Under the pieces are notes generated by a model that saw nothing but the letters and a program-made list of their open reading frames with translations, was not told the origin of the DNA and made no database searches. Made by a program: the position numbers and the translations under genes. A stretch of 64,000 nucleotides of DNA from a virus. Within the stretch, counting starts at the first letter, position 1. Every line of letters starts with the position of its first letter. The stretch is from positions 1 to 64,000 of IMG/VR virus record IMGVR_UViG_3300018790_000468, one strand, 5' to 3'. Positions 18,325 through 50,757 of this stretch are shown here, piece after piece.

Positions 18325-18911
18325 TGTTCACTTTCACAGGCCCTCAGTGTTCTGGCAAATCTACATTGCTACAAGCATGTAAGAAGCATTATGACAGTCG
18401 GCTTACATATGTGGAAGAGGTTACACGACTCATCAAACGTGAGTTTGATGTGCCTATCAATGAAGAAGGTGCATGTGATATTACTCAGACTTTAATCTTG
18501 AATAAAGAATTTGAGAACCTGTTTATTGGTTACAAGTTGAGTGGCTTCCAAGGTATTCTGCATGATCGATGTTTGTTGGATGGCATGATATATACAAACT
18601 ACTTTGCAGAAAAATATGGCAGGAACAAGTTCCAATTCTCAGAAGCTTTGGGTGCACGGTATTATTATTCACACATACACCGGTATGATCATATCTTTTA
18701 TACCAATCCGCATGATGTGCCCATGGAAGATGATGGTGAAAGAAGCACGTGTGATCATTTCAGATCGCGCATCACTAGCATGTATGAAAATTTCTGGTTG
18801 GATGATATCAATATTCGTGGCAAAGTTACTATATTGCGGGGCACTGTGGCAGAGCGTATGGAGCAGATCAAAGCTAAATTGCATGAGTTGCTGCCAAGTG
18901 CTACACGGTGA
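18321..18911 (+). CDS. P-loop kinase/ATPase (AAA_28 type)
   Basis: 196 residues. Walker A is FTGPQCSGKST (about 5-15). LHDRCLLDGMIYT is the Asp-Arg pair of nucleotide kinases, and a lid-like acidic region (VPMEDDGERS) follows. The overall layout fits AAA_28/NadR-like kinases that phosphorylate nucleosides or nucleotides. It is linked by 4-base overlaps to both neighbours inside the dpdA-queF operon, so a role in nucleotide modification is plausible. It is not clearly homologous to a known dNMP kinase. A second P-loop kinase of the same class lies at 43868. Confidence 0.6.
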   Translation: MMFTFTGPQCSGKSTLLQACKKHYDSRLTYVEEVTRLIKREFDVPINEEGACDITQTLILNKEFENLFIGYKLSGFQGILHDRCLLDGMIYTNYFAEKYGRNKFQFSEALGARYYYSHIHRYDHIFYTNPHDVPMEDDGERSTCDHFRSRITSMYENFWLDDINIRGKVTILRGTVAERMEQIKAKLHELLPSATR

Positions 18912-20233
18912 GTGACATGCCCTTTTGTTTGGCCCCTTGGGCAGGCATACATGCATTGCCAGATGGCCTGGTGTATCCTTGTTGCATGTCCACATTTGAT
19001 CCTGAGAACGCGTTTGGTGACCTGAATGATAATGCAATTGAAGATATCTTGAATTCAGAAAAAGCCAAGCAATTCAGATGCAAGATGATGGCAAATGAGC
19101 CAGATCAGAAGGCTTGCAGCCATTGCGTGAGTGAGGAAAAGACAGGTACAAAGAGTTTTCGTCATCACTGGAATACCAAGTATGCACATGCACTGCCACT
19201 TGTTGACAAGACAGACAAAGATGGTCATTATCATTTTGAAAACTTTCCCTACATTGATATACGGTTGTCCAGTTTGTGCAATTTTAAATGCAGAATGTGT
19301 CACAGTGGTTTGAGCTCTTCTTGGTTGCTAGAGGATGTGAAGTATGCATCAAATTATCAAAATTCTTTCAATTCCAAGACTGGTGTCATTGAAATACCAC
19401 AAAAAGAAAAACTTATCAAATTTATCATTGACAGAATTGAGCATGTGGAAGAAATTGAGTTTGCAGGTGGTGAGCCTTTTCTAATATCTGATTACTTCAC
19501 TTTGATAAAAGAATTTAAAAGGGTAAACAATCTTAACGTTAAAATAAGATTTCATACCAATGCATCATCTTTGTTTTGCAAAGGTGAGTACATACCGGAC
19601 TTACTCAAAGAGTTTAAGAACGTTTTTATCATGCTAAGCATTGATGGTCATGCCCAAGTTAATGACTACATGAGAAAAGGAAGCATATACAAAAAAATTA
19701 TTGCAAATGTGAGTCAGCTCAAGCAAATTGTGCCTCAAGCATTCCTAAGATTGGTACCCACCATTAGCATACCCACCATATACAGTGTGCCTTTCCTGTA
19801 TGCAGACTTTCTACGCAAAGGGTTAGTTGGTCATGCAGACATTGCATGCAGACCATTGTACGGGCCTGAATATCTGAACATACAAACATTGCCGTTGGAG
19901 GACAAGTTAAAAATTCTAAAGTTTTACAATTGCTTCATTGACAATGTGGCAGTTAAGCTTTTGCAGCGTTTCTCAGAAGAAAGTGTTGCATATGTGCGGC
20001 AAGAGTTCTCATCCATCATGAATTTCATGTTGCTCAAGAATCAAATTGAGCCATTCAATAGCAAGAGATTCAAAGAGAGCATCAAGCGACTGGATGTGAG
20101 ACGCAATGAAAGTTATGAAGATATTTTTCCTGAAACTGCACATCTGTTGTCAGGTGATGTGTCAACATACAACTTGGATATCAAATATAATGAGTTGAAG
20201 AACTTTGTAGATGGTATACAATATAACCAATGA
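18908..20233 (+). CDS. Twitch-domain radical SAM protein
   Basis: 441 residues. The radical SAM cluster motif is LSSLCNFKCRMCHSG (about 121-135, CX3CX2C), followed by EFAGGEPFL (SAM-binding GGE). An N-terminal CLAPWAGIHALPDGLVYPCC and a CSHC pair form SPASM/twitch-like cysteine sites for auxiliary clusters. Proteins of this type are frequent in marine phages with unknown targets. The GTG start gives a 4-base overlap (GTGA) with the kinase gene, and its stop overlaps queF by 4 bases. In this operon it may act in base or nucleotide modification, which is inference. Confidence 0.8.
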   Translation: MSDMPFCLAPWAGIHALPDGLVYPCCMSTFDPENAFGDLNDNAIEDILNSEKAKQFRCKMMANEPDQKACSHCVSEEKTGTKSFRHHWNTKYAHALPLVDKTDKDGHYHFENFPYIDIRLSSLCNFKCRMCHSGLSSSWLLEDVKYASNYQNSFNSKTGVIEIPQKEKLIKFIIDRIEHVEEIEFAGGEPFLISDYFTLIKEFKRVNNLNVKIRFHTNASSLFCKGEYIPDLLKEFKNVFIMLSIDGHAQVNDYMRKGSIYKKIIANVSQLKQIVPQAFLRLVPTISIPTIYSVPFLYADFLRKGLVGHADIACRPLYGPEYLNIQTLPLEDKLKILKFYNCFIDNVAVKLLQRFSEESVAYVRQEFSSIMNFMLLKNQIEPFNSKRFKESIKRLDVRRNESYEDIFPETAHLLSGDVSTYNLDIKYNELKNFVDGIQYNQ

Positions 20234-29586: not shown

Positions 29587-29614
29587 ATAATAATATGTTA
29601 AGTTTGTATATCAA
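29587..29614 (-). promoter_or_regulatory. Early-type promoter of the DUF366-gp62 operon
   Basis: On the minus strand: TTGATA (29614-29609), 16-base spacer, TATTAT (29592-29587), 6 bases to the ATG at 29580. Confidence 0.55.
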
Positions 29615-30618
29615 CTATTTTCTATTTGGGATTTAATCCAGAAATAAGTTTTCTCTAACCCTGCAACCAATGGGCTACATGGCTGCCAATTCAATTGCTT
29701 GTGTATCAACTTGTTGCAAGAATTTCTGCCTCTTACACCGGTAGGCCCATCCAGCTTGTAGTTTTTTATAATTTTTTTATTTTCAAATGAACATGCCAAG
29801 TCAACCAATTGATTGATGGTTACTCGTTCCACAGAACCAATGTTCACTGGTTCTGCAAAGTCTGATTGCATCAATCTGCGAATGCCTTCAATGCACTCAT
29901 CAATATACAAGAAGGATCTAGTCTGCTCACCATCACCCCAGATTTCAATGTCGCCTGTGGATTGCAACACTTTGCGACAAATTGCAGCTGGTGCCTTCTC
30001 TCTACCACCCTGCCATGTACCTTGGGTGCCAAAGATGTTGTGAAAGCGAGCAATGCGCACGCTCAAATTGTAATTGCGGCTGTAAGCCAAGTATAACCTC
30101 TCACTAAAAAGTTTTTCCCAGCCATACTCACTGTCTGGGTTTGCAGGGTATGCGCTGTCTTCACTGCAGTTGGGATTGTTGGGGTCCAATTGATTGTGTT
30201 CTGGATACATGCAAGCACTGCTGCTATAAAAAATCTTTTTGCCTGCATAATTATATGCTGCAGCTGTCTTGCACACATTTAAATTGATAGTTGCAGAATT
30301 TTGCATCACATCTGCATCATGTTCTTTTGTGAAGATGTAGCCTGCACCACCCATGTCAGCAGCCAATTGATACACCTCGTCAAATGGCGTGACAACACTA
30401 GCTGTGCTATAATGCCAACTGGCATTCATTGCTCTTTTTACGGCGCTAGGATCTGTGAGATCCATTATAAAAAATTCATCCGCACCAGTATCAGAATACT
30501 CTGGGTGTTTTAAATCTATGCCTCGAACAAAATACCCCTCACTCTTCAATCTCGTTACAAGGTGGTTGCCAATGAATCCACCTGCACCAAGCACTAATGC
30601 TTTCTTGATATTACTCAT
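29611..30618 (-). CDS. GDP-mannose 3,5-epimerase-like NAD-dependent epimerase
   Basis: 335 residues of the extended SDR family. LVLGAGGFIGNHLV is the NAD loop, FYSSSACMYPE and YGWEKLFSERL contain the catalytic Ser-Tyr-Lys set. Strong specific blocks (ADMGGAGYIF, IARFHNIFGTQGTWQGGREKAPAA, WGDGEQTRSFLYIDEC, GVRGRNSCN) match plant and bacterial GDP-mannose 3,5-epimerase, which makes GDP-L-galactose or GDP-L-gulose. It is the last gene of the glycan cluster and overlaps the next gene upstream by 8 bases. Confidence 0.85.
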   Translation of the reverse strand: MSNIKKALVLGAGGFIGNHLVTRLKSEGYFVRGIDLKHPEYSDTGADEFFIMDLTDPSAVKRAMNASWHYSTASVVTPFDEVYQLAADMGGAGYIFTKEHDADVMQNSATINLNVCKTAAAYNYAGKKIFYSSSACMYPEHNQLDPNNPNCSEDSAYPANPDSEYGWEKLFSERLYLAYSRNYNLSVRIARFHNIFGTQGTWQGGREKAPAAICRKVLQSTGDIEIWGDGEQTRSFLYIDECIEGIRRLMQSDFAEPVNIGSVERVTINQLVDLACSFENKKIIKNYKLDGPTGVRGRNSCNKLIHKQLNWQPCSPLVAGLEKTYFWIKSQIENS

Positions 30619-31336
30619 ATCTTAATATAGAATGTATCGATTCAATATCAAGAAGGTTTTTTAGAATTTTTGCGTTGGGCACAACGCAATGACCACCGAT
30701 TTTCTTGGAACCATACAGCACAGGTCTTGTCACATTCTTTTTGCCCAATGCTAAATAACCTTCATTATAAGTGAGATTATATGTTGTCATGACTTCTTCA
30801 AAATTTAACCCTTCTGTTTCACATAACTTGAGCACATCGTTATGAAACGCAATGCAAATGCCATAATATGTAGTGTCCAGTAGTTTTGCATATTCTGTGG
30901 TCTTGCTATTTTTGCAAATCAACGATTTAATATTCAGACAGTTCAAGTGCTCTTGATATTTTTTTGCTACAGAGCGGTCATCTGCACCAATGTATTTTAA
31001 GAAGAGCTTTATGCCTGTATCCAGATTAGGATGCAAGCCGCGAACAGGTGAATGACAGGTGTTGCCAATGATCTTGCTTGTTGTGCCTGGTACAACTGTG
31101 GAGTGTATGACAGTGAGTTTTGGTGCGTTTTCTGAGATGTAATTGTTGACTGTAGTAACAAAATTCTCTGTAAATGGTATGCAGACGTTTAGTACATCAC
31201 AGTTTTTTATGTCATCGTTGCAATTAAACTTGGGGTCTACAATGTATACTGAAGATGCAAAGTCCTTGTGCTCTCTGTACACCTTGGCAAGGCTACTACC
31301 AATTTCACCATACCCAATGATGCCTATTTTGTACAT
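30611..31336 (-). CDS. Short UDP-glucose/GDP-mannose dehydrogenase-like protein
   Basis: 241 residues, about half of a usual UDP-sugar dehydrogenase. IGIIGYGEIGSSLAKVY is the Rossmann loop, HSTVVPGTT and EYAKLLDTTYYGICIAFHND match the family, and GGHCVVPNAKIL holds the likely catalytic Cys. The C-terminal UDP-binding domain is missing. It overlaps the epimerase gene and the dehydratase-like gene by 8 and 13 bases. Probably an NAD-dependent nucleotide-sugar or sugar-acid enzyme; substrate unknown. Confidence 0.62.
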   Translation of the reverse strand: MYKIGIIGYGEIGSSLAKVYREHKDFASSVYIVDPKFNCNDDIKNCDVLNVCIPFTENFVTTVNNYISENAPKLTVIHSTVVPGTTSKIIGNTCHSPVRGLHPNLDTGIKLFLKYIGADDRSVAKKYQEHLNCLNIKSLICKNSKTTEYAKLLDTTYYGICIAFHNDVLKLCETEGLNFEEVMTTYNLTYNEGYLALGKKNVTRPVLYGSKKIGGHCVVPNAKILKNLLDIESIHSILRYE

Positions 31337-32301
31337 TTTTTATTTTTGTAGAAATTTACAACTTCTTCAATTACTTCATCAACATTTTTTGTAGGCTTCC
31401 AACCAAGATGTTGTTTAATTTTTTCACTATTAGGAATTTTTTCAGGAGCTTCAGAGAAAAGAGGACCATGTAATGACACTGGATCAACATGACTAATATT
31501 TGACATTGTATGTGTAAGCTCTTTTACTTTCTCTGCAAGATACAGCACAGTTCTTTCGTTTTGCTCGTAACCGATATTCCATTCATGGTTCCAGTATTCA
31601 TCAGGTGCAGTTGAAGTTAAATATATGCCATCAACTATATCTTTTACCCAGGTGAAAGCTCTGAGCTGCAATCCATTATAATAAACTGTGATGTCCTCAT
31701 TGTTTAGTGCTTGGTCTACAAATCTTGGCAAAACAAAGCCACCATCAGGCAGTTGATACTCACCTGTAATATTAAATGGTCTGATGATCTGATATTTAAA
31801 ATTGGAATTAATTTTACCATGATTAGCCAGAACTATTTCTGATAGTAATTTTGAAATTGCATATTCATTTCTTACAGTAAAAGGTCCATGTAAAACTTTA
31901 TCGTCTTCTTCTTTCAGATAACTTTTACTGGCTCTATATCCATAGATTTCAGATGTGGATATGAACAGCAGGGGACATTTGTTGTGATTTGCTCCGTTGA
32001 TTGCCCAGTATATATCATCTAAAATCAATCTCGCCATATTACCAGAATGCTTGAGGACACCAACCGGGCCCACTGGTGATGCGAGGTGCAGTATTAAATC
32101 AAACTTGGGCAGATCCGCCCACTTGACATGCAAAATGTTGTCCACAATAACCTGTGTATCTTTGGTAATGGAGTGATCTGCAGGTATGGCATTCGATGAC
32201 ATGTTATCAATGATGGTAATGCTCCAGCCAAGCGCTTTCCACTTCTCAATGCAGTGTACACCTACGAATCCTAGACCACCAGTGATAAGAATCCTTTTCA
32301 T
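31324..32301 (-). CDS. NAD-dependent sugar epimerase/dehydratase
   Basis: 325 residues. MKRILITGGLGFVGVHCIEKW is the NAD-binding start (chosen over five upstream residues), ISTSEIYGYR and NEYAISKLLSE carry the catalytic Ser/Thr and Tyr-X3-Lys. The family includes UDP-glucuronate decarboxylase and dTDP-glucose dehydratase. VKDIVDGIYLT and LGWKPTKNVDEVIEE fit it. Exact reaction not decided. Part of the minus-strand glycan operon. Confidence 0.75.
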   Translation of the reverse strand: MKRILITGGLGFVGVHCIEKWKALGWSITIIDNMSSNAIPADHSITKDTQVIVDNILHVKWADLPKFDLILHLASPVGPVGVLKHSGNMARLILDDIYWAINGANHNKCPLLFISTSEIYGYRASKSYLKEEDDKVLHGPFTVRNEYAISKLLSEIVLANHGKINSNFKYQIIRPFNITGEYQLPDGGFVLPRFVDQALNNEDITVYYNGLQLRAFTWVKDIVDGIYLTSTAPDEYWNHEWNIGYEQNERTVLYLAEKVKELTHTMSNISHVDPVSLHGPLFSEAPEKIPNSEKIKQHLGWKPTKNVDEVIEEVVNFYKNKKCTK

Positions 32302-32343
32302 CACTATAATTAGCACATGTTATTGTTATTTCAATCTACCTTA

Positions 32344-33075
32344 TCAGACGTAACTAGTAATTAATTTTCTATTGGCTATTAGTGATGATCCGGATGGCCC
32401 GGATTCAGGTTTATCATAATCTATATTGAGGATTGAATCACTCCACTTCTTCCATGTAGTACTAATATCAGATCTGGGGTCACCATTGAATAGATCCCAG
32501 TGTGGGTATTTTTCTTCAGCTAAAGTTTTTACAATAACAAAGTGGTCATAACCATTGTATTTTTGCAGCCAATGTGGTGTGGAGCTATGACCACCAGGCA
32601 CATTGAGAGGCGATTTCCAGGTGGTATCATAAGTGCTCTCCTGGCTCTCATAAAGGGCTAAATCTGCTTCATACAATCTCCACACCCAATCACGATCTTC
32701 CCAACCACCATGAATGAACCTCTCGTCCCACCAGCCTATTTTTCTGATTAATTCTTTTGCAAACCCCATGAACCCAACATTATAAAGCAGCACACACGAC
32801 ATGCCATTCTCAAGTAAATGCAGCATTTTTTCCACTTCTTCTGGTTTCGGATAAGTGCGATCGTTAATTAATATTACCCATTCCGTTGGTGAAGTAACAA
32901 TAGCGTGGTTTATGAGCTGAGAGTATGAGGGGTACATTTTAGGATACCTATCGATTCTATTGTTCCAGTGTACTTTGTATTTTGCCTCTAACGGCTTTAA
33001 TGCCTCTATTTGTTTATTTGTTATATCTCTACTGCAACCACAGTGCAAGCTAATTGTAAATTCGTCAATTTTCAT
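32344..33075 (-). CDS. Glycosyltransferase-like protein (GT-A type)
   Basis: 243 residues. SYSQLINHAIVTSPTEWVILINDRTYPKPEEVEKML looks like the GT-A nucleotide-sugar region, with Asn-Asp in place of DXD. FIHGGWEDRDWVWRLYEAD has the Glu-Asp pair near the acceptor site seen in GT2-like enzymes. Overlaps the phosphodiesterase-like gene by 4 bases. Sugar and acceptor unknown. Confidence 0.55.
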   Translation of the reverse strand: MKIDEFTISLHCGCSRDITNKQIEALKPLEAKYKVHWNNRIDRYPKMYPSYSQLINHAIVTSPTEWVILINDRTYPKPEEVEKMLHLLENGMSCVLLYNVGFMGFAKELIRKIGWWDERFIHGGWEDRDWVWRLYEADLALYESQESTYDTTWKSPLNVPGGHSSTPHWLQKYNGYDHFVIVKTLAEEKYPHWDLFNGDPRSDISTTWKKWSDSILNIDYDKPESGPSGSSLIANRKLITSYV

Positions 33076-33491: not shown

Positions 33492-34688
33492 TTATGCAGA
33501 AACTATGCCCCACTTTTCAATGGCTTGGTTATATTCCTTGCCATGTTCCTTATCAATAGCTTGCCGCATAGCCAAGGCACCAGATCGGGAGCCACCTGGA
33601 TGGCCGTGCACTGCACCACCTACATTTGCCATAAAATCATTACCCACCCTGCCAATACAGAAATCAACTAGACCGGGATGCATTCCGCAACTAAGAGCTG
33701 GCACAGTATTGCCTTCTCTTAAAATTTTTAATGCTTGCATCAATTCAATTTCATCATCATTGCTATAACCACCAACCATACCTGCTTGTATTGTATCAGC
33801 ACCCATGAGAGTTGCTAACTGACAAACAACAGGCCAAGCAATAGAGAATCTATGACTTCTATCTGTAAATACTCTGTCGCCGCTTTTTTGAAAATGTAAG
33901 AATACTGGTAAATCTAACTTACGAATGCTATTATAAACCCCCAGACCGCTCCATACATTTATGTGTACTCCGTTGCCGCCCAGTTCGCTTACTTTGCGTA
34001 CCCTATCTAAAACAACATGTGGATCTCCATTAATTGTGTGGCAAAAAGCTATTTTTTTCTTTTGTGTTGAAAGATAGTTAGCTATAACTTCTACCCTTTC
34101 CTCCAACCGGCAACATGCAGGGTTACTCATTATTTCATCTTCTTTAATAAAATCAACACCACCCTCAACAACTTGTTTAACCATTTCAAGCAAAACTTTT
34201 GAAGTGATACCAGTTTTGGGTTTAATAATAGCACCAAAAAGCGGTTTGTTAAATTGATTGGTTAATTTCCTCAATCCTGTGATGCCAAATTTTGGGCCCA
34301 AGAAATGCTGCTTAACACATTCTGGTATTAGCAAATCAATTAATCTGCAGCTAGTGATCAGATCGATATCTACATGACCTCCCATGAGCTGGCACAATAA
34401 ATGGCTAATACCATCGTTATCCCAGTCACTATTGATAACAGGAAATCCTATCTCTACCATACCAGCCTTTTGTTCCTCTAATTTCTTTTCATCCGCAAAT
34501 ATAATACAGCTGTGATTTTCAAACAAGCTGTCTGTCTCCCATTCATTTCTTACATTAGGATTACCAACACTTTGACCTATGGCTAGGTTCCAAGCTGCTG
34601 CTTTGAGAGATTGGTTGCTTGACATTCTATATGTGGCAACAACATATTTGTTGATGTCTACCTCTTCCTTGTTACGGAAAATTTTCAT
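33492..34688 (-). CDS. RuBisCO-like protein (form IV type, large-subunit fold)
   Basis: 398 residues with the whole RuBisCO large-subunit layout. FGAIIKPKTGIT (Lys156, Lys158) matches the K175/K177 loop. GVDFIKEDE (Lys182, Asp184, Glu185) matches the carbamylated K201-D203-E204 metal site. His279 fits H327, ALSCGMH (Ser333) fits S379, and NVGGAVHGHPGG fits the phosphate-binding G403/G404. Loop 6 reads QAGMVGGYSNDDE with no equivalent of Lys334, so it should not fix CO2. Form IV relatives act as enolases, isomerases or decarboxylases on sugar phosphates. It overlaps a cupin gene by 17 bases and lies in a glycan cluster, so a sugar-phosphate reaction is likely. Confidence 0.85.
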   Translation of the reverse strand: MKIFRNKEEVDINKYVVATYRMSSNQSLKAAAWNLAIGQSVGNPNVRNEWETDSLFENHSCIIFADEKKLEEQKAGMVEIGFPVINSDWDNDGISHLLCQLMGGHVDIDLITSCRLIDLLIPECVKQHFLGPKFGITGLRKLTNQFNKPLFGAIIKPKTGITSKVLLEMVKQVVEGGVDFIKEDEIMSNPACCRLEERVEVIANYLSTQKKKIAFCHTINGDPHVVLDRVRKVSELGGNGVHINVWSGLGVYNSIRKLDLPVFLHFQKSGDRVFTDRSHRFSIAWPVVCQLATLMGADTIQAGMVGGYSNDDEIELMQALKILREGNTVPALSCGMHPGLVDFCIGRVGNDFMANVGGAVHGHPGGSRSGALAMRQAIDKEHGKEYNQAIEKWGIVSA

Positions 34689-34998
34689 ATTTATCTCCTG
34701 TCACAGAAGGTGTTTTTACAACTATAAGTTCGCAATCTTCAAAAAAAGTGGGATCTGCTATTTCATTTGGTTCAATAACAAAAACATCTCCTTGTTGTAA
34801 AATTTTTTCTTGTATCATCATTTTACCTTTGATTAGATAGTTAATCTCCGTCGCAACTTTATGCAAGTGCTTTGGCCAGCATTCACCTTTCTGATGCTGC
34901 TTATAGCAGACTTCAAATTCTTTTGTCTTGAGAACAGAAGGGCTAAAATCACCGATAAACCACCCACCTTTAAAAGTATTAATGTTATAGATTTTCAT
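34672..34998 (-). CDS. Cupin-domain protein
   Basis: 108 residues. CWPKHLHKVATEINYLIKGKMMI (cupin motif 1 with His-X-His and Glu) and GDVFVIEPNEIADPTFFEDCELIVVKTP (motif 2) form a single cupin barrel. Small cupins serve as isomerases, epimerases or sugar binders. The close coupling to the RuBisCO-like gene (17-base overlap) and a nucleotidyltransferase gene (14-base overlap) suggests a shared sugar pathway. Confidence 0.72.
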   Translation of the reverse strand: MKIYNINTFKGGWFIGDFSPSVLKTKEFEVCYKQHQKGECWPKHLHKVATEINYLIKGKMMIQEKILQQGDVFVIEPNEIADPTFFEDCELIVVKTPSVTGDKYENFP

Positions 34999-35717: not shown

Positions 35718-36380
35718 TCAACAACCGATTATGCCGTCTGCACGTACAATATAAAATGTCTTATGAATTATATTAACATTAATATTGTTTGCATTTAAAT
35801 GTGCACCTAGTATACCCTCTGGACATGGTTGTTTTATACGCTCGGTGCCTTCATTATCGTTGTAAACTTTTGCATATGTGTCCATAGTATTCGAATTACC
35901 GTATGCAAACCAATCATTTATACCACCGCAGCCACCTGGGCGGTCCATAAGATATACCTGCTTCTCTGCACAGTTGTGTAGATTTATTTTTTCGCTATAA
36001 AGCAAATCCCATCTTACTCTTACTACAACATCATACTTAAAATTATTAACCCGCTCGTATTCTTTCTTAAGATCATTACTTCTTGTAATAGACCTGAGCA
36101 TGCTCTTTGTATTTTCAGAAAAGGTGGGGTAATCAAAACAGAAAGAGATTGGCTTTAGAAAATTAACTACGTCAGTTATATCATAATCTGTATACTTGCC
36201 ATAGGGTGTTGTGTCATGGTCGTTGAAATCATTCTTATAAGCACTATCGTCATGCTTATGCCAGCAATGGCAAAACACATCACAATTGTAAGGATCGATT
36301 AGATGGTCTTTTAAGCTTTGGCGTACATAATTAAAGCTACGTATTTGACCTGATAAACAAACAGCTACTTTCATTTCCAT
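35718..36380 (-). CDS. Glycosyltransferase-like protein (MKVAVCLSGQIRSF type)
   Basis: 220 residues. It opens with KVAVCLSGQIRSF, a start found in a group of small surface-glycan transferases, and has YDVVVRVRWDLLYSE in the middle where a nucleotide-sugar site is expected. Not assigned to a numbered family. It lies 5 bases from its neighbours on both sides within the glycan operon. The enzymatic call is by resemblance and context. Confidence 0.5.
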   Translation of the reverse strand: MEMKVAVCLSGQIRSFNYVRQSLKDHLIDPYNCDVFCHCWHKHDDSAYKNDFNDHDTTPYGKYTDYDITDVVNFLKPISFCFDYPTFSENTKSMLRSITRSNDLKKEYERVNNFKYDVVVRVRWDLLYSEKINLHNCAEKQVYLMDRPGGCGGINDWFAYGNSNTMDTYAKVYNDNEGTERIKQPCPEGILGAHLNANNINVNIIHKTFYIVRADGIIGC

Positions 36381-37225: not shown

Positions 37226-38047
37226 TTAGCTTTTGCAAGTACTTGCGGCATCGAGAATTAATTTTTTATAATAATTGAAGTCTGATTTGTATGTTTCTTT
37301 TTTACTCACCTCAGCATACTTGGTCATGAGCAGCTCCGGTGTTAAATCTTCCCATGAGTTAATAAAAAGAATTGGGCAATCTTTAAAATAAACCACTGGT
37401 ATATCTTTTAAAACAATGGGCACTGTTCCTACATACATTGACTCCCAGATTCTATGACAGTCAACACTGTTTCCTGGTGGTGAAATAACATACTTGTATG
37501 TGCTTAGTTTGCGCAAATAGTCTTCAAAGCTATGCTTATGAAAATCGAAATCGATAAAATCGTAATGTTTGATCTTCTGTATTGCATGAGACCTCTCATT
37601 GGGATTTGTGTTGGGATCAAAGTTACAGTAAACAAGATTCTTTTTACTATTGTTCTCATTAATTATTTTTAATATTGTTTCTTTGTTACCGTGAGGCCAA
37701 ACTTCATTTGCCATACCTATGGGTATGGTTTGTAATTTATTGTGCATAACATGGCAATTCATGCCAAACCATTTGACGAGATGCGGGTTGTTGAGAATCG
37801 ATAGATGTTCTGTTGTGACTGGTGCATCTGCATCATGCGTAATCAAGACAAACGGGTAATTAATGTTGGGTAAATTTTCTCTTGCAAATAGAGAAATGTT
37901 ATCACCATGAAGAAAAATAATATTTTCGTCAGGGTTGTATGTAATTTTCTTACCATATCTAGATATGTAGTTGCTTGCAAGGCTCAACAACTTATCTGGT
38001 GTAATTATAAAATCTGTATTATTCACTTTTCTTAATAAACTCTTCAA
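37226..38047 (-). CDS. Exostosin-like glycosyltransferase (GT47-like)
   Basis: 273 residues. The C-terminal block STYKYVISPPGNSVDCHRIWESMYVGTVPIVLKD matches the exostosin/GT47-type nucleotide-sugar site (Pro-Pro-Gly-Asn, Arg-X-Trp-Glu). The earlier part has PFVLITHDADAPVTTEH. Likely adds a sugar to a surface glycan. Overlaps the upstream gene by 29 bases. Confidence 0.62.
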   Translation of the reverse strand: MKSLLRKVNNTDFIITPDKLLSLASNYISRYGKKITYNPDENIIFLHGDNISLFARENLPNINYPFVLITHDADAPVTTEHLSILNNPHLVKWFGMNCHVMHNKLQTIPIGMANEVWPHGNKETILKIINENNSKKNLVYCNFDPNTNPNERSHAIQKIKHYDFIDFDFHKHSFEDYLRKLSTYKYVISPPGNSVDCHRIWESMYVGTVPIVLKDIPVVYFKDCPILFINSWEDLTPELLMTKYAEVSKKETYKSDFNYYKKLILDAASTCKS

Positions 38048-40592: not shown

Positions 40593-41371
40593 GGTTTAAT
40601 TTGCTTCAAAAAGCTAACAACCTCTTGCTTTGTTTTGATGGGTATTTGATTCACCATGACACCGTGTTTTTTAACAAAATATTCCCACTCTTTATGAATT
40701 TTTAGAGTACGAGAGCCATCAGGATTATCTGGGGCATCAATGCGGCTGCTCGTCTCTGGGTTATTCATAATGTAATTATCTGAATTTGTTAAATCTGCAA
40801 ACCACCAGAACGGCGCTGCATAATCTCCACGCACAGACTCTCTATATGTGAGGTCAACATCCCATGCAAACCTATATCCAGTGTCATATAAGCCAGTCTT
40901 GCTGTAGCACGAAGCATGATGATATGTGAACTCGTTGCACATGTTTGGATAAAATGAAATGCTTGTATCTTTGCTATATTCTACAGTTAGTTTTGGTGTT
41001 CGTTTTTCTGGTGCACCAGATTCCCAGGATGTACTCACAAATGAAAAGTACTTCAAGTTGCTTGCTTTGGATGCCTCAATATATTTGTAGAATATATTCT
41101 TGTCTTTGATGATCATGTCATCTTCAATTATAAAAATATGATCACATTTTTTTTCCAAAAGAAAATTAATACAATCATTTCTGCATACACTTGGATACCT
41201 ATTTTTGTGATGCTGTATCCAATCAGAATCATATTTTTTAGAATATTCTTTCCCACCATTAACTGTCACAAGTTCATCAATTGTATCACGTGGTAGAGAA
41301 TTGTACAATGCATCATAATAATGCTCAGTATTATATGTGGTGATACCTACTCCAATTTTCTGTGTGTTCAT
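40589..41371 (-). CDS. GT2-like glycosyltransferase (260 aa)
   Basis: IGVGITTYNTEHYYDALYNSLP is the GT2 beginning, RNDCINFLLEKKCDHIFIIEDDMIIKDKN the nucleotide-sugar and DXD region (Glu-Asp-Asp). It resembles the next gene (41368) in layout, so the two are probably paralogues. The cluster position suggests surface or virion glycan synthesis. Confidence 0.65.
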   Translation of the reverse strand: MNTQKIGVGITTYNTEHYYDALYNSLPRDTIDELVTVNGGKEYSKKYDSDWIQHHKNRYPSVCRNDCINFLLEKKCDHIFIIEDDMIIKDKNIFYKYIEASKASNLKYFSFVSTSWESGAPEKRTPKLTVEYSKDTSISFYPNMCNEFTYHHASCYSKTGLYDTGYRFAWDVDLTYRESVRGDYAAPFWWFADLTNSDNYIMNNPETSSRIDAPDNPDGSRTLKIHKEWEYFVKKHGVMVNQIPIKTKQEVVSFLKQIKP

Positions 41372-42132
41372 AATGATTTAAAATATTCAATAACCTTATC
41401 CAAGCCATCATATGGCTGACCAGGGTCTGTAACATCAATATTATATTTTTGTTTGAATCTATCCACACCATTTCTAAAATTCTTCATCCAATCACCTTTC
41501 CTTATGGTAGATTTATCATGATGGTAGTCTTGATCAACAATGTATTGGTTGCTGTTCTCTAGGTCAATGAACCAACGGAACGGTGGGTGGTATCCATGCC
41601 TTATAGCATTCATGGTATGATCCACATGCTCCATGGCATTGACATATTGCTCATCCATCAATCCTATTTGGTCAAAGACTGATTTGTGGTAATAACTGCA
41701 TGCTCCATACACATTAAAATACAGAGCCACTCTTTGTCCTCGTATTTCAAAGATTTTGCGGGGGATTGGCACATTGTTCTGTTTGTTATCTTGACCATGT
41801 AAGCAGTAGTTAAAATGCTTCACTCTGGTCTTTTTGCTTGCTGCAACATATGCAGCAAATGCATTGTCAAGAAAAACAACATCATCCTCCACAAGAAAAA
41901 TGTGATCGCAACCTTTTGCCAAGAGAAATTCTATGGCTTTGTTCTTTGACTTGCCAACACCTAGATTCACTTCATTATTAATAATATGCATACCTGGTTG
42001 CATAATTTTATCAAATCCATCATTAACAACAACTAATTCATCATACCAATCTGGCTTGAGACTTTTGATGCATTCTCTAAGAAATGATGGCCGATCACAA
42101 GTGATAACACCTATCCCAGTTTTTTCTTTCAT
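41368..42132 (-). CDS. GT2-like glycosyltransferase (254 aa), first gene of the cluster
   Basis: TGIGVITCDRPSFLRECIKSLKPDW, then GVGKSKNKAIEFLLAKGCDHIFLVEDDVVFLDN, gives a standard GT-A fold with Glu-Asp-Asp metal site. Its ATG lies 7 bases after TACAAT, with a perfect TTGACA 16 bases further up, so it begins the long glycan operon that runs down to 29611. Confidence 0.7.
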   Translation of the reverse strand: MKEKTGIGVITCDRPSFLRECIKSLKPDWYDELVVVNDGFDKIMQPGMHIINNEVNLGVGKSKNKAIEFLLAKGCDHIFLVEDDVVFLDNAFAAYVAASKKTRVKHFNYCLHGQDNKQNNVPIPRKIFEIRGQRVALYFNVYGACSYYHKSVFDQIGLMDEQYVNAMEHVDHTMNAIRHGYHPPFRWFIDLENSNQYIVDQDYHHDKSTIRKGDWMKNFRNGVDRFKQKYNIDVTDPGQPYDGLDKVIEYFKSL

Positions 42133-44668: not shown

Positions 44669-46117
44669 ATGTGCGGTTTTCTAGTAACAAACAAGCCAGT
44701 GTCAGATGCAGAATTGGACCATGCAAATTTTTATATCAAATTCAGGGGGCCTGATCATACCGAGAAACCAAAAATAGAAAATATTAGCTTCATACACAAC
44801 CTGCTCAGTCTCACAGGAGAATTTAGACCCCAGCCAATTTTTAAAGATAATATAGCTGTGGTCTATAACGGTGAAATTTATAATTTTAAGGAATTAGATA
44901 AAGATGCAAAATCAGACGGTGATGTAATTATTCCACTGTACAAAGAATATGGTGCCAATTTTCTTGATAAACTTGATGGTGAGTTCTCCATAGTGCTTAT
45001 TGATTTTAATACAAACAAAGCAATATTAGCTGTTGACACCTTTGAAACAAAACCTCTGTATGTTGCACACAAGGGCCCATACTTTGGTGCTGCATCTCTG
45101 AGAAGCGGTTTAGTAAGGCTGGGATTCAAACATATAAGAGAATTGAGATGCAATACAGGTATAATATATAATATAAAGTCACTAGCAGTTGAGGACATAT
45201 TTGAAATACATAAGTTTGATGTTGAAAATGAGCACAAGAAAACCTTTGATGATTGGCATAATGCCTTTGAAGCAGCAGTTTTGAAGCGGCTAAAATATGT
45301 GGATCTTAAGAAAACTGGAGTTGGTCTGCACTTAAGTGAGGGTCATGACAGTGGCTCTATTGCAGCGTGCCTTAAAAAATACAACCTTTCGGATGATATC
45401 TTAATACATTCTTTCATAACACAGGATATGCATCCTGAAGTCTTGAGGTGGAGACATGGGCTTGATCAGGATACTTTGCCAAAGAATGGCAGTGGAGAAA
45501 TTTTTAAATCTCCAAATTTTAAACGATCCATACTTGATAGTATAAGAGAGGAGGATTTTGTTTTGAGCAATATTTTATATAAGAAAAGAGTTGAGGATTT
45601 TGATTATTTTACAATGACACCCGAAGCAAAGCTGGAAGTAAGAAATTCCTACTATCATTTCACAAGAAATATGTACCATCTTATATACAGAGCTAGATTG
45701 AAACATAGTTGCAGAATAGGGCTGGGTGGTTATGGTGGTGATGGTGTGTCAAGTGCGTGGGTAAATAAAATTTATAAGAAATATGGAAGCATATGGCCTA
45801 TTATTAATTTCAGGGATAACTCGATGTATCTATCAGATATAATAGCAGGTTCTCTGGGAGTTGAAGTAAGAAACCCTTACATGGATAAAGCATTATGGCA
45901 GGAGTCTTTCTGGATGGATAAATCTGTCTATAGAAATGAAAACAATAATCATAAACCACCATTGCATGACTATCTTGAGAAAGAGAAATTTCCATTTTAT
46001 AAGAGAGATAAAAACAACGATATAGAGTTCTTCTGGATTGGATTCGGTAATTTTCTGAACTTTAACTCAGTACATAAAGACCCTATTTATGTACCGCAAC
46101 CTGATATTACACTTTAA
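44669..46117 (+). CDS. AsnB-like glutamine amidotransferase with altered PP-loop
   Basis: 482 residues. The start is fixed by the need for Cys2: MCGFLVTNK begins an Ntn-type class II glutaminase domain, with FRGPDHT (about 25-31) and VYNGEIYNF (about 65-73). The second half is an asparagine-synthetase-type ATP pyrophosphatase domain, but the usual SGG.DS loop reads SEGHDS (223-228). LGGYGGDGVSSAWV is the second conserved loop of AsnB. It would move ammonia from glutamine to an activated acid. Asparagine, a glycan amide or a 7-deazaguanine amide are all possible targets. It converges with queE, overlapping its end. Confidence 0.72.
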   Translation: MCGFLVTNKPVSDAELDHANFYIKFRGPDHTEKPKIENISFIHNLLSLTGEFRPQPIFKDNIAVVYNGEIYNFKELDKDAKSDGDVIIPLYKEYGANFLDKLDGEFSIVLIDFNTNKAILAVDTFETKPLYVAHKGPYFGAASLRSGLVRLGFKHIRELRCNTGIIYNIKSLAVEDIFEIHKFDVENEHKKTFDDWHNAFEAAVLKRLKYVDLKKTGVGLHLSEGHDSGSIAACLKKYNLSDDILIHSFITQDMHPEVLRWRHGLDQDTLPKNGSGEIFKSPNFKRSILDSIREEDFVLSNILYKKRVEDFDYFTMTPEAKLEVRNSYYHFTRNMYHLIYRARLKHSCRIGLGGYGGDGVSSAWVNKIYKKYGSIWPIINFRDNSMYLSDIIAGSLGVEVRNPYMDKALWQESFWMDKSVYRNENNNHKPPLHDYLEKEKFPFYKRDKNNDIEFFWIGFGNFLNFNSVHKDPIYVPQPDITL

Positions 46118-46859
46118 GTGCTTTGTCCCAAATTACAAGCTGCAGACGCGGGCTAAAATTGAACATGTGCTTCTTGCAAAGATCGGCTACCATGGCCGCC
46201 TTTTCTGCTAATTCTGCCCTGCTGCCACAACAAGGCATCAACCATACACGATTCTTTGGCACATTAACGTCAGGGTTGTTTATATACTTCTCCAGGATTT
46301 CCTGCACATCAGATTCACCGCTAACAACAAACTTGAACCCTGACCCATTCTCTGCATGCCACTTTAAAACAGCGGGCTTGTATCTCTTTTCAACAGCATC
46401 CCCATTATTAGACAGTTTTGGTGATGTTGTGAACGTTGCCCTATATTCTGTTAGCCAGGCTTCATCCGGCAGAATGGTTGCATTGGTTTCAAAATCAATA
46501 ACCGGCGTGTATCCAAATCGGTCTGCATACGAGCGCACTAATTTGAGCAATTGCTTCTGTTGAATGAGTGGTTCACCGCCAGTGATCTTCCATATGGCAC
46601 CCTCGCGCAACTTGCACTCATATCCCTCTTGCAACAACAGATCCAATATGCTGTCCAAAGTCAACTTGTTCTTTACAGACCAGCTCACAAAGCTGTCACA
46701 ACCATGTGGTGCAGCTGCAGAAGCAAATCCTTTGCATGTGAGGTTGCACATAGAAAGGCGCATGAACACAGAAGGCATGCCGGCATATTCACCTTCACCT
46801 TCAATGGTGTAAAAAATCTTATCATCACTAAGAAATAGTGTATCAATTGCATCAGTCAT
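46107..46859 (-). CDS. queE: 7-carboxy-7-deazaguanine synthase QueE (radical SAM)
   Basis: 250 residues. FYTIEGEGEYAGMPSVFMRLSMCNLTC is the QueE start (Gln/Glu-Gly-Glu and the cluster region), WKITGGEPLIQ the SAM-binding GGEP, and VIDFETNAT matches QueE. The cluster cysteines are spaced CX3CX11C rather than CX3CX2C, an insertion also known in variant QueE proteins. It converts 6-carboxytetrahydropterin to 7-carboxy-7-deazaguanine, between QueD and QueC. It has its own early-type promoter, with the ATG 6 bases after TATTAT. Confidence 0.8.
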   Translation of the reverse strand: MTDAIDTLFLSDDKIFYTIEGEGEYAGMPSVFMRLSMCNLTCKGFASAAAPHGCDSFVSWSVKNKLTLDSILDLLLQEGYECKLREGAIWKITGGEPLIQQKQLLKLVRSYADRFGYTPVIDFETNATILPDEAWLTEYRATFTTSPKLSNNGDAVEKRYKPAVLKWHAENGSGFKFVVSGESDVQEILEKYINNPDVNVPKNRVWLMPCCGSRAELAEKAAMVADLCKKHMFNFSPRLQLVIWDKALKV

Positions 46860-47905: not shown

Positions 47906-48544
47906 TCAAGTGCCCCAAGAGGTTCCTGCATAAGGAATGCTTATGCCGCGTGTCACTTTGTTGGTGAGCGGTGCACCAGACTCAATGTTCAGACCTGCAT
48001 TCACTGCAGTTACATTCTGTAGTGCAGGTGGTATGGTAGTTGTAACAGTTACTGCAGCTGCATTGCCTGAAGCTATACTGGTAGCGGTATGTGCAGTTTG
48101 TGTGGCTGTGGCAATTGCAATTGCAGAATTCTTCTCATGTTCCCACACTTCCACCTGTTTAACCCAGCAACGACCATTGGTAAGATGTCTCACATGTCGA
48201 TCAGCTGTCTCCAAGCACCATTCTGCAGTACGCTCGATGCCTACTCCATTTTCCATGATGCGTGGTAATGCTGCACCTGCATGACCCAATGCAATGAATG
48301 TATCAAGTAGAGGATCATCACCTGCAATGCATAATGTATGATCAAATTGATGTTCTAATGCTTGCTTCAATTCCTTGAGACCACCAAAATCTACAACCCA
48401 ATTTCTTGCATCTAAGTGTTCACACTCAAACCAAAATTTTGCCACCAATCGGTAACCATGCACATATTTGCAATGACTGTCTGCTCTCCATTGTCTGAAT
48501 GCGCAACTTCCCAGCTCTATAATCTTTGTACTTTCATGTTTCAT
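47906..48544 (-). CDS. queD: 6-carboxy-5,6,7,8-tetrahydropterin synthase QueD (PTPS family)
   Basis: 212 residues. FRQWRADSHCKYVHGYRLVAKFWFE is the metal and catalytic-Cys region of the FRQW-type QueD group, with HGY in place of the usual HGH. ARNWVVDFGGLKELKQALEHQFDHTLCI supplies the downstream Asp/His motif. The C-terminal about 70 residues (Ala/Thr/Val-rich) are an extra tail. It makes 6-carboxytetrahydropterin from dihydroneopterin triphosphate, the product of FolE (50110). It has two tandem early-type promoters. Confidence 0.82.
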   Translation of the reverse strand: MKHESTKIIELGSCAFRQWRADSHCKYVHGYRLVAKFWFECEHLDARNWVVDFGGLKELKQALEHQFDHTLCIAGDDPLLDTFIALGHAGAALPRIMENGVGIERTAEWCLETADRHVRHLTNGRCWVKQVEVWEHEKNSAIAIATATQTAHTATSIASGNAAAVTVTTTIPPALQNVTAVNAGLNIESGAPLTNKVTRGISIPYAGTSWGT

Positions 48545-50109: not shown

Positions 50110-50757
50110 ATGTCTACAAAAGTATTAATTCCATACGCAAATCATAACCACCCTCGATCTGAACAAGAGAAGCAGGAGATCATTGCACATGCTGCAAAAG
50201 CTTATGAAGCATATCTGGATGCATTGTGCATTGATTGGCGCAATGATCCCAACAGTTCCAACACACCACACCGAGTGGCCAAAGCCTTTGTGGAAGATCT
50301 GGCCAGTGGTTGTTACAGTACCCCGCCCAAGGTGACTGCGTTTGCAAATGTGGACCAGTATGATGGCATTGTGTGTCAGAACAACATCAGAGTAACCTCA
50401 CTTTGCTCTCATCACCATGTAGCGTTCACTGGTGTGGCACATGTGGCATACATACCTGCACGTGATGGCAAGGTCATTGGATTGAGCAAGCTTAATCGCA
50501 TTGTGGACTGGTTTTCACGCAGACCACAGGTGCAAGAAAATCTCACCATGCAAATTCATACACATATTGATGAAGCTTGTGTGAAGAACAATGGTGTAGC
50601 AGTCATGATTGAAGCCAAGCATTCATGTTGTTCCAACCGCGGCATCAAGCATGATTCTACTATGCGCACTGCGCGCATGTCTGGTGCATTCCTGGACAAT
50701 GGCGACAACTCTCGTTCAGAGTTTTACAAGTTCATTGAATTTGCACAAGTGCATTAA
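50110..50757 (+). CDS. folE: GTP cyclohydrolase I (FolE type)
   Basis: 215 residues. The zinc and catalytic block SLCSHHHVAFTGVAHVAYIP, GLSKLNRIVDWFSRRPQVQENL and EAKHSCCSNRGIKHDST are all present, giving the two cysteines and the histidine that bind zinc. FolE makes dihydroneopterin triphosphate from GTP, the first step to 7-deazaguanines (with QueD, QueE) and also to folates and the 10-formyl-THF used by formyltransferases. An early-type promoter predicts a leaderless message. Confidence 0.9.
   Translation: MSTKVLIPYANHNHPRSEQEKQEIIAHAAKAYEAYLDALCIDWRNDPNSSNTPHRVAKAFVEDLASGCYSTPPKVTAFANVDQYDGIVCQNNIRVTSLCSHHHVAFTGVAHVAYIPARDGKVIGLSKLNRIVDWFSRRPQVQENLTMQIHTHIDEACVKNNGVAVMIEAKHSCCSNRGIKHDSTMRTARMSGAFLDNGDNSRSEFYKFIEFAQVH

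Follow-up and report, generated by a model that had tools for sequence, protein, structure and literature searches.

A 64,000-nucleotide stretch of viral DNA (positions 1 to 64,000 of the IMG/VR record IMGVR_UViG_3300018790_000468, hereafter the window) encodes a RuBisCO-like protein (RLP) belonging to a broad and widespread family that is carried mostly by phages and is not the oddity of a single one. Its members make up a new clade within a known protein type, and the gene family is a real one of phages, under purifying selection. As the key residue for CO2 fixation is lost and the same sugar-activating genes recur beside it, the RLP most likely aids the synthesis of an activated sugar for a glycan. 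It is moderately probable that it is a form IV enzyme serving a nucleotide-sugar pathway by isomerising or epimerising a sugar phosphate, with no addition of CO2. A fuller proposal is more tentative: the RLP may carry out an undescribed reaction of the RuBisCO superfamily, the isomerisation or epimerisation of a sugar phosphate destined for nucleotide activation, in which it would be interchangeable with RpiB and would supply, mainly in T4-like phages, a new activated sugar for phage-directed glycans.

The preliminary description had placed a 398-residue RuBisCO-like protein at 33,492 to 34,688, and an open reading frame of exactly this extent is present on the minus strand, with an ATG start preceded by a Shine-Dalgarno-like GGAG sequence (Table 1). 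The tight coupling to its neighbours was also found as reported, with a 17-base overlap between the start and the cupin gene, and 3 bases between the TAA stop and the ATG of the GDPD-like gene. Homology to RuBisCO is far above chance, with a match to Pfam RuBisCO_large at 1.5e-32 and a top PDB sequence match at 2.6e-38 to 4nas_A, an MtnW chain. The NCBIfam models for form III, MtnW (TIGR03332) and OiaX give 165, 131 and 132 bits against cut-offs of 497, 513.6 and 700, respectively, and scores so far under the cut-offs set the protein inside the superfamily and outside these named families. The structure prediction that had been suggested as a check, run with AlphaFold2 on a 36-row alignment (pLDDT 93.2, pTM 0.92), yields the RuBisCO fold over both domains, in agreement with Pfam. 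Its best Foldseek match is the type III RuBisCO 3a12_B (E 4.7e-31, TM 0.88 over the whole query), and MtnW 2oem is also a good fold match (TM 0.85). No protein with this fold is present in the BFVD viral structure library, where the best TM was 0.42. Strong purifying selection is indicated by the two pairs of relatives that were not saturated (dN 0.05 and dS 0.80; dN 0.075 and dS 1.8), with dN/dS of about 0.04-0.06.

Table 1. Features of the window, with positions counted from its first letter
Feature	Position	Strand	Basis
Radical SAM-SPASM protein, directly after a short gene reading like an ATP-binding kinase-like protein	18908..20233	+	sequence reading for the short gene
Nucleotide-sugar epimerase (SDR)	29611..30618	-	Epimerase 3e-38
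Short nucleotide-sugar dehydrogenase-like protein	30611..31336	-	UDPG_MGDP_dh 1.8e-6, NDP-sugDHase 1.1e-10
Nucleotide-sugar SDR, nearest UDP-xylose synthase / UDP-4-keto-pentose models	31324..32316	-	Epimerase 5.9e-29, PRK11908 1.8e-25
Glycosyltransferase-like protein	32344..33075	-	PHROG 2456 glycosyltransferase 4.1e-4
Compact GDPD-like barrel, 138 aa	33072..33488	-	motif H6-R7, E35-x-D37, H49-D50 kept
RuBisCO-like protein, 398 aa, of a new form IV clade	33492..34688	-	K182/D184/E185 metal site, K156, K158, Gln267, Tyr308
Small cupin, 108 aa, H44/H46/E51 kept	34672..34998	-	weak Pfam Cupin_7/Cupin_2 matches and alignment
Sugar-phosphate nucleotidyltransferase, 242 aa	34985..35713	-	NTP_transferase 3.8e-10; constant RLP partner
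DUF7796 protein, probable glycan-related transferase	35718..36380	-	PF25072 5.5e-12
RXYLT1 C-terminal-like glycosyltransferase	37226..38047	-	PF24785 (RXYLT1_C) 8.8e-9
Glycosyltransferase family 2	41368..42132	-	PF00535 3.4e-6
QueE-like gene	46107..46859		sequence reading
QueD-like gene	47906..48544		sequence reading
FolE-like gene	50110..50757		sequence reading
Protein of 911 aa: long TPTPTVTPT repeat tract, then repeats around NLVTNTGVVGNDVTGVGT	51484..54219	-	sequence reading

The source is a 112,223-base virus record of a T4-like phage. The window itself carries, about 9-13 kb from the RLP gene, a Gp23 major capsid protein (4.9e-93) and a prohead protease (7.1e-30), together with ribonucleotide reductase, PhoH and a helicase. 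An identical RLP gene (100% identity) occurs with the same local gene order in two other metagenome assemblies, and of 24 large records carrying related loci, 11 have Gp23. Bacterial contamination, which would have undone the claim that the gene is phage-encoded, is thus rejected by the capsid and prohead genes of the same record, by the recurrence of the locus in other assemblies and by the Gp23-bearing records.

The active site was mapped on a 59-row alignment that includes 36 family members from phages, bacteria and archaea, with form I numbering as ruler. K175 and K177 correspond to K156 and K158 of the window RLP and are invariant in the 36 members, as is the metal site K201/D203/E204, which appears as K182-x-D184-E185. 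S379, G381, G403 and G404 correspond to S333, G335, G357 and G358, the first three being invariant and the last kept in 35 of the 36. The K175/K177 loop, the K-x-D-E metal site and the phosphate-binding glycines had all been described as retained, and the metal-site residues, whose alignment on those of RuBisCO had been singled out as decisive, do align. The loop-6 lysine K334, described as missing, is Tyr308 in the window RLP and Tyr in all 36 members. Four further replacements are equally uniform (36/36 each), namely H294 by Gln (Gln267, a placement that depends on the alignment), N123 by Gly (Gly104), T65 by Asn (Asn43) and E60 by Gly (Gly38), so that none of these five residues of forms I-III is kept in any member. 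His265, two residues before Gln267, is invariant among phage sequences and lost in Legionella. More variable are R295 (Lys in 27 of 36, Ser in 8), H298 (Asp in 27 of 36) and H327 (His in 26; Gln in 10, including the window RLP); with the P2-phosphate residues R295 and H327 altered in this way, the ligand could be a mono- or a bisphosphate. The missing carboxylation residues and a tree position outside forms I-III define the family as form IV, a mixed group in which membership is of the kind and not of a named subgroup.

These replacements bear directly on the reading that viral rbcL annotations suggest, of a carbon-fixing RuBisCO acting as an auxiliary metabolic gene. Published studies assign viral rbcL to carbon fixation (PMC8506154, PMC12615777, PMC13390420), and type III RuBisCO (3a12, 8dht) shares with the RLP its overall fold and metal site, being the best fold match, and has K175, K177, K201, D203, E204 and S379 in common with it. 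However, K334, H294 and N123 (and the E60 and T65 of form I) are replaced in every member, the form III score is about a third of its cut-off, the family is a separate clade outside forms I and III, and the partner genes are those of sugar activation, with no phosphoribulokinase or other gene of the Calvin cycle recognised nearby. Carbon fixation is therefore considered extremely unlikely.

The phylogenetic comparison with form IV groups that had been called for was made with IQ-TREE on the 59 rows, which cover the family, MtnW, OiaX-type RLPs, R. palustris IV-Photo and forms I/III, and with a midpoint root that serves the drawing only. All 36 sampled family members fall in one clade (support 100/99), outside forms I/III and apart from the IV-Photo protein as well as from two further clades, MtnW (100/100) and the OiaX-type RLPs (100/99). 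Within it, the sequences of Legionella, Azospirillum and Elusimicrobia branch first; the later subclade (99/95) unites the phage sequences, among which some from SAR11 and MAGs are interspersed. Membership of the carbon-fixing, MtnW or OiaX groups is rejected by residues, scores and tree alike.

Two known form IV chemistries were weighed against this tree. MtnW, the 2,3-diketo-5-methylthiopentyl-1-phosphate enolase of the YkrW group, resembles the RLP in fold, K-x-D-E site, P1 glycines, K175 and the lack of K334, and it supplies the best PDB sequence match as well as a close fold match. A methionine-salvage enolase or isomerase, of the MtnW type or like the methylthioribulose-phosphate isomerase of R. 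rubrum, is nevertheless very improbable: MtnW is a separate clade, only MtnW has a lysine at the N123 position, where the family has its invariant Gly, only the family has K177, and no methylthio-sugar or other methionine-salvage gene was recognised among the neighbours at the family loci. OiaX-type RLPs of the apionate pathway (3nwr type) share the fold and the metal site and belong to the same superfamily; they act on a sugar-acid phosphate, 3-oxo-isoapionate-4-phosphate (PMC6302742). By analogy with the OiaX decarboxylase or with transcarboxylase/hydrolase RLPs, the protein could instead make or break a carbon-carbon bond of a sugar-acid phosphate, giving a branched or shortened sugar (an apiose-like one, for example), a reading to which the UDP-xylose-synthase-like SDR of the window lends some weight. 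It appears rather unlikely, since OiaX-type proteins form their own clade, keep H294, R295 and K334, and adjoin a four-carbon acid sugar kinase that was not recognised near the RLP family, whose OiaX score is besides far too low.

The family is widespread. Scanning IMG/VR with the window protein recovered 171 relatives, and a broader alignment found relatives encoded on at least 357 viral stretches; the INPHARED phages gave no match, and plasmids only distant OiaX-type and RuBisCO homologues with no close relative. A pattern scan of cellular genomes located 22 close loci, in SAR11, Legionella maceachernii, L. nautarum and L. drozanskii, Azospirillum oleiclasticum, Elusimicrobia, Verrucomicrobiia, Patescibacteria, nanoarchaea and other groups. 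Some of these loci lie on short MAG contigs that could be phage DNA. The gene is rare in cells, being present in 4 of 140 Legionellaceae, 2 of 297 members of the SAR11 order and 1 of 337 Alphaproteobacteria in the samples taken. The Patescibacteria sample gave 3 of 287 at E < 1e-60, two of these three grouping with forms I/III in the tree.

The genes around the RLP recur with it. In 80 phage loci taken from the scan with the window protein, partner genes were counted up to eight genes from the RLP. Within that distance, 76 loci have the nucleotidyltransferase (at most two genes away in 64), 63 a GDPD-like gene and 52 the cupin, and almost all of these genes share the strand of the RLP. Of the 22 cellular loci, 20 have the nucleotidyltransferase next to the RLP or a few genes off, and the other two are a locus that breaks off inside the gene (L103) and a 3.1-kb contig (L093). 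The full set of GDPD-like gene, RLP, cupin and nucleotidyltransferase is found in Azospirillum oleiclasticum and an Elusimicrobia MAG, and the Legionella loci have no GDPD-like gene. Approached from the partners, the 77 closest viral cupin loci carry the nucleotidyltransferase in every case and the RLP in 75, which makes the cupin a nearly RLP-specific partner in phages, whereas GDPD-like loci carry the nucleotidyltransferase in 72 of 80 cases and the RLP in only 10. As the association between RLP and nucleotidyltransferase extends across phyla and phages, the two are most naturally read as parts of one pathway. Against the preferred explanation count the roughly one third of phage loci without the cupin and the one fifth without the GDPD-like gene. 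No description of this cassette was found in the open-access literature.

The nucleotidyltransferase profile is nearest to 4evw, a chain named nucleoside-diphosphate-sugar pyrophosphorylase, a name that gives no nucleotide. In six SAR11 loci (L088-L092, L094), two nucleotidyltransferase genes flank the RLP, one of them divergent and matching the family profile at E of about 1e-37 to 1e-43. The cupin has only weak PDB matches, so its role is a guess. In Legionella, a divergent LicD-like phosphotransferase gene precedes the RLP-nucleotidyltransferase pair (L100:8937-9776; also L101 and L102), its identity in L100 being supported by PF04991 at 6.3e-44. As no LicD-like protein was found in the phage loci, a LicD-type transferase was dropped as a general partner.

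The 138-residue GDPD-like protein has no Pfam match. It has the GDPD catalytic motif (HR / E-x-D / HD), with all six residues invariant in 33 aligned rows, and its profile matches GDPD chains weakly (2.4e-4); Foldseek also returns GDPDs first, at weak significance (E 0.013, TM 0.49-0.55). An invariant H-x-K motif and at least 586 viral relatives were observed as well. GDPDs hydrolyse glycerophosphodiesters, and the nanoarchaeal locus L095 contains one of full length (PF03009 1.2e-21), both of which could suggest that RLP and GDPD-like protein together scavenge host phosphodiester polymers, degrading them to sugar phosphates. This is given a low probability, for the RLP is constantly accompanied by a sugar-activating type of nucleotidyltransferase, and the GDPD-like gene is lacking in the Legionella loci and in about a fifth of the phage loci.

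The place of the RLP in the cassette appears to be taken by other enzymes in some phages. Cassettes with nucleotidyltransferase and cupin and no RLP often carry an RpiB/LacAB isomerase or a HAD phosphatase domain fused to the nucleotidyltransferase. The RpiB domain of such fusions matches PF02502 at 4.1e-33 in the Synechococcus cyanophage SynMITS9220M01, where the protein is annotated as 'phosphatase', and at 3.1e-30 in L234. These fusions share the nucleotidyltransferase, cupin and GDPD-like cassette with the RLP loci, although RpiB is an unrelated protein family and a HAD phosphatase and, in several loci, a PfkB-like kinase stand alongside; no isomerase was recognised in the HAD-fusion variant. 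Twenty loci of the GDPD scan that contain a cupin divide into eight with the RLP, five with RpiB, four with HAD of the fused kind and three with none of them, and RLP and RpiB occur together in 0 of 159 loci. RpiB-bearing loci are few, with 11 fused proteins in the sets examined, and the sample behind the exchange is accordingly small. The nucleotidyltransferase-RpiB fusions, for instance L110:5835-6992 and L234:895-2052, are perhaps an undescribed bifunctional enzyme. Bacterial heptose routes combine an isomerase, a kinase, a phosphatase and a nucleotidyltransferase, and by this analogy the cassette would make an activated sugar with the RLP in the place of the isomerase. From this modest sample it can be inferred that the RLP takes the isomerase slot, and, among pentulose, hexulose and heptulose phosphates, the exchange hints at a substrate of five or six carbons.

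Known RLPs use phosphorylated carbonyl substrates at a metal site with a carbamylated lysine and carry out enolisation, isomerisation or decarboxylation. Since the residues kept here fit this chemistry and the lost lysine fits an absence of carboxylation, proton transfer on a sugar phosphate is proposed, starting from elements that are directly supported: homology, fold, kept and lost residues, the conserved cassette and the RpiB exchange. The metal would be held by a presumably carbamylated Lys182 with Asp184 and Glu185, and the substrate would be a sugar phosphate, probably a ketose phosphate with its phosphate in the conserved P1 site. Removal of the proton next to the carbonyl would give an enediolate, and its return elsewhere would leave the substrate isomerised or epimerised; CO2 would not be added, because the loop-6 lysine is gone. 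The cupin would probably assist the same step, for instance by tautomerisation or by opening a ring, and a phosphodiester in the pathway may be the target of the GDPD-like protein. The adjacent nucleotidyltransferase would then couple the product to a nucleotide, and neighbouring glycosyltransferases would build the sugar into a phage-directed glycan. A precedent for coupling an open-chain ketose phosphate to a nucleotide is the CDP-6-D-fructose of Campylobacter capsule synthesis (PMC10918830).

The setting of the window agrees with such a destination. The preliminary description had located the RLP among nucleotide-sugar enzymes in a glycan cluster, and SDRs, a dehydrogenase-like protein and glycosyltransferases do adjoin it, methyltransferases and glycosyltransferases surrounding the cassette. 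Human RXYLT1 adds xylose to ribitol phosphate, and the RXYLT1-like gene together with the UDP-xylose-synthase-like SDR may point to xylose in the phage glycan. The activated sugar could alternatively be meant for phage DNA, as base hypermodification of the kind seen with arabinosylated hydroxymethylcytosine in T4 relatives. T4-like phages glycosylate DNA with phage-made sugars, and the QueE-, QueD- and FolE-like genes of the window make 7-deazaguanine synthesis possible, perhaps for DNA modification. This target is not favoured and has little probability: many different glycosyltransferases lie around the genes, the cassette also occurs in cellular genomes, and no member of the thymidylate synthase/hydroxymethylase family is present in the record of the window or in 12 of 15 other family records, which may be incomplete. 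The suggestion that a phage uses an RLP to build an unusual glycan sugar, a role that we infer from the gene context, has gained from the cassette conserved in phages, bacteria and archaea and from the exchange with RpiB; the novelty attached to a single phage has not survived, given the breadth of the family.

Several published sequences may belong here. The IV-GOS RLPs and 65 unassigned ocean sequences of 2007 (PMC10173188, PMC1821046) are likewise environmental RuBisCO homologues outside the other named clades and, by their description, may be candidates for the family. A landfill viral protein listed as rbcL groups among RbcL-like proteins (PMC12607003); as described in the part of that source consulted, it is likewise a virally encoded member of the RuBisCO family, but is presented there as rbcL with neither cassette nor function. 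Some viral 'rbcL' genes reported as carbon-fixing may also be candidates for the RLP family. The soil rbcL1, in contrast, reportedly showed carboxylase activity when rbcS was expressed alongside it, so that it is probably a true RuBisCO and distinct from this family.

The form IV RLPs with known reactions met here serve methionine salvage or apionate breakdown. If the proposal is true, the RuBisCO scaffold would also be placed in glycan biosynthesis, and much of the diversity of RLPs would reside in phages. The family can be recognised by a signature in which K175, K177 and K201-D203-E204 are kept while H294 is replaced by Gln, K334 by Tyr and N123 by Gly, and loop 6 needs checking in viral 'rbcL' matches before they are read as carbon fixation. 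The constancy of the nucleotidyltransferase and the exchange with RpiB would narrow the role of RLPs that have stayed unassigned in environmental sequences.
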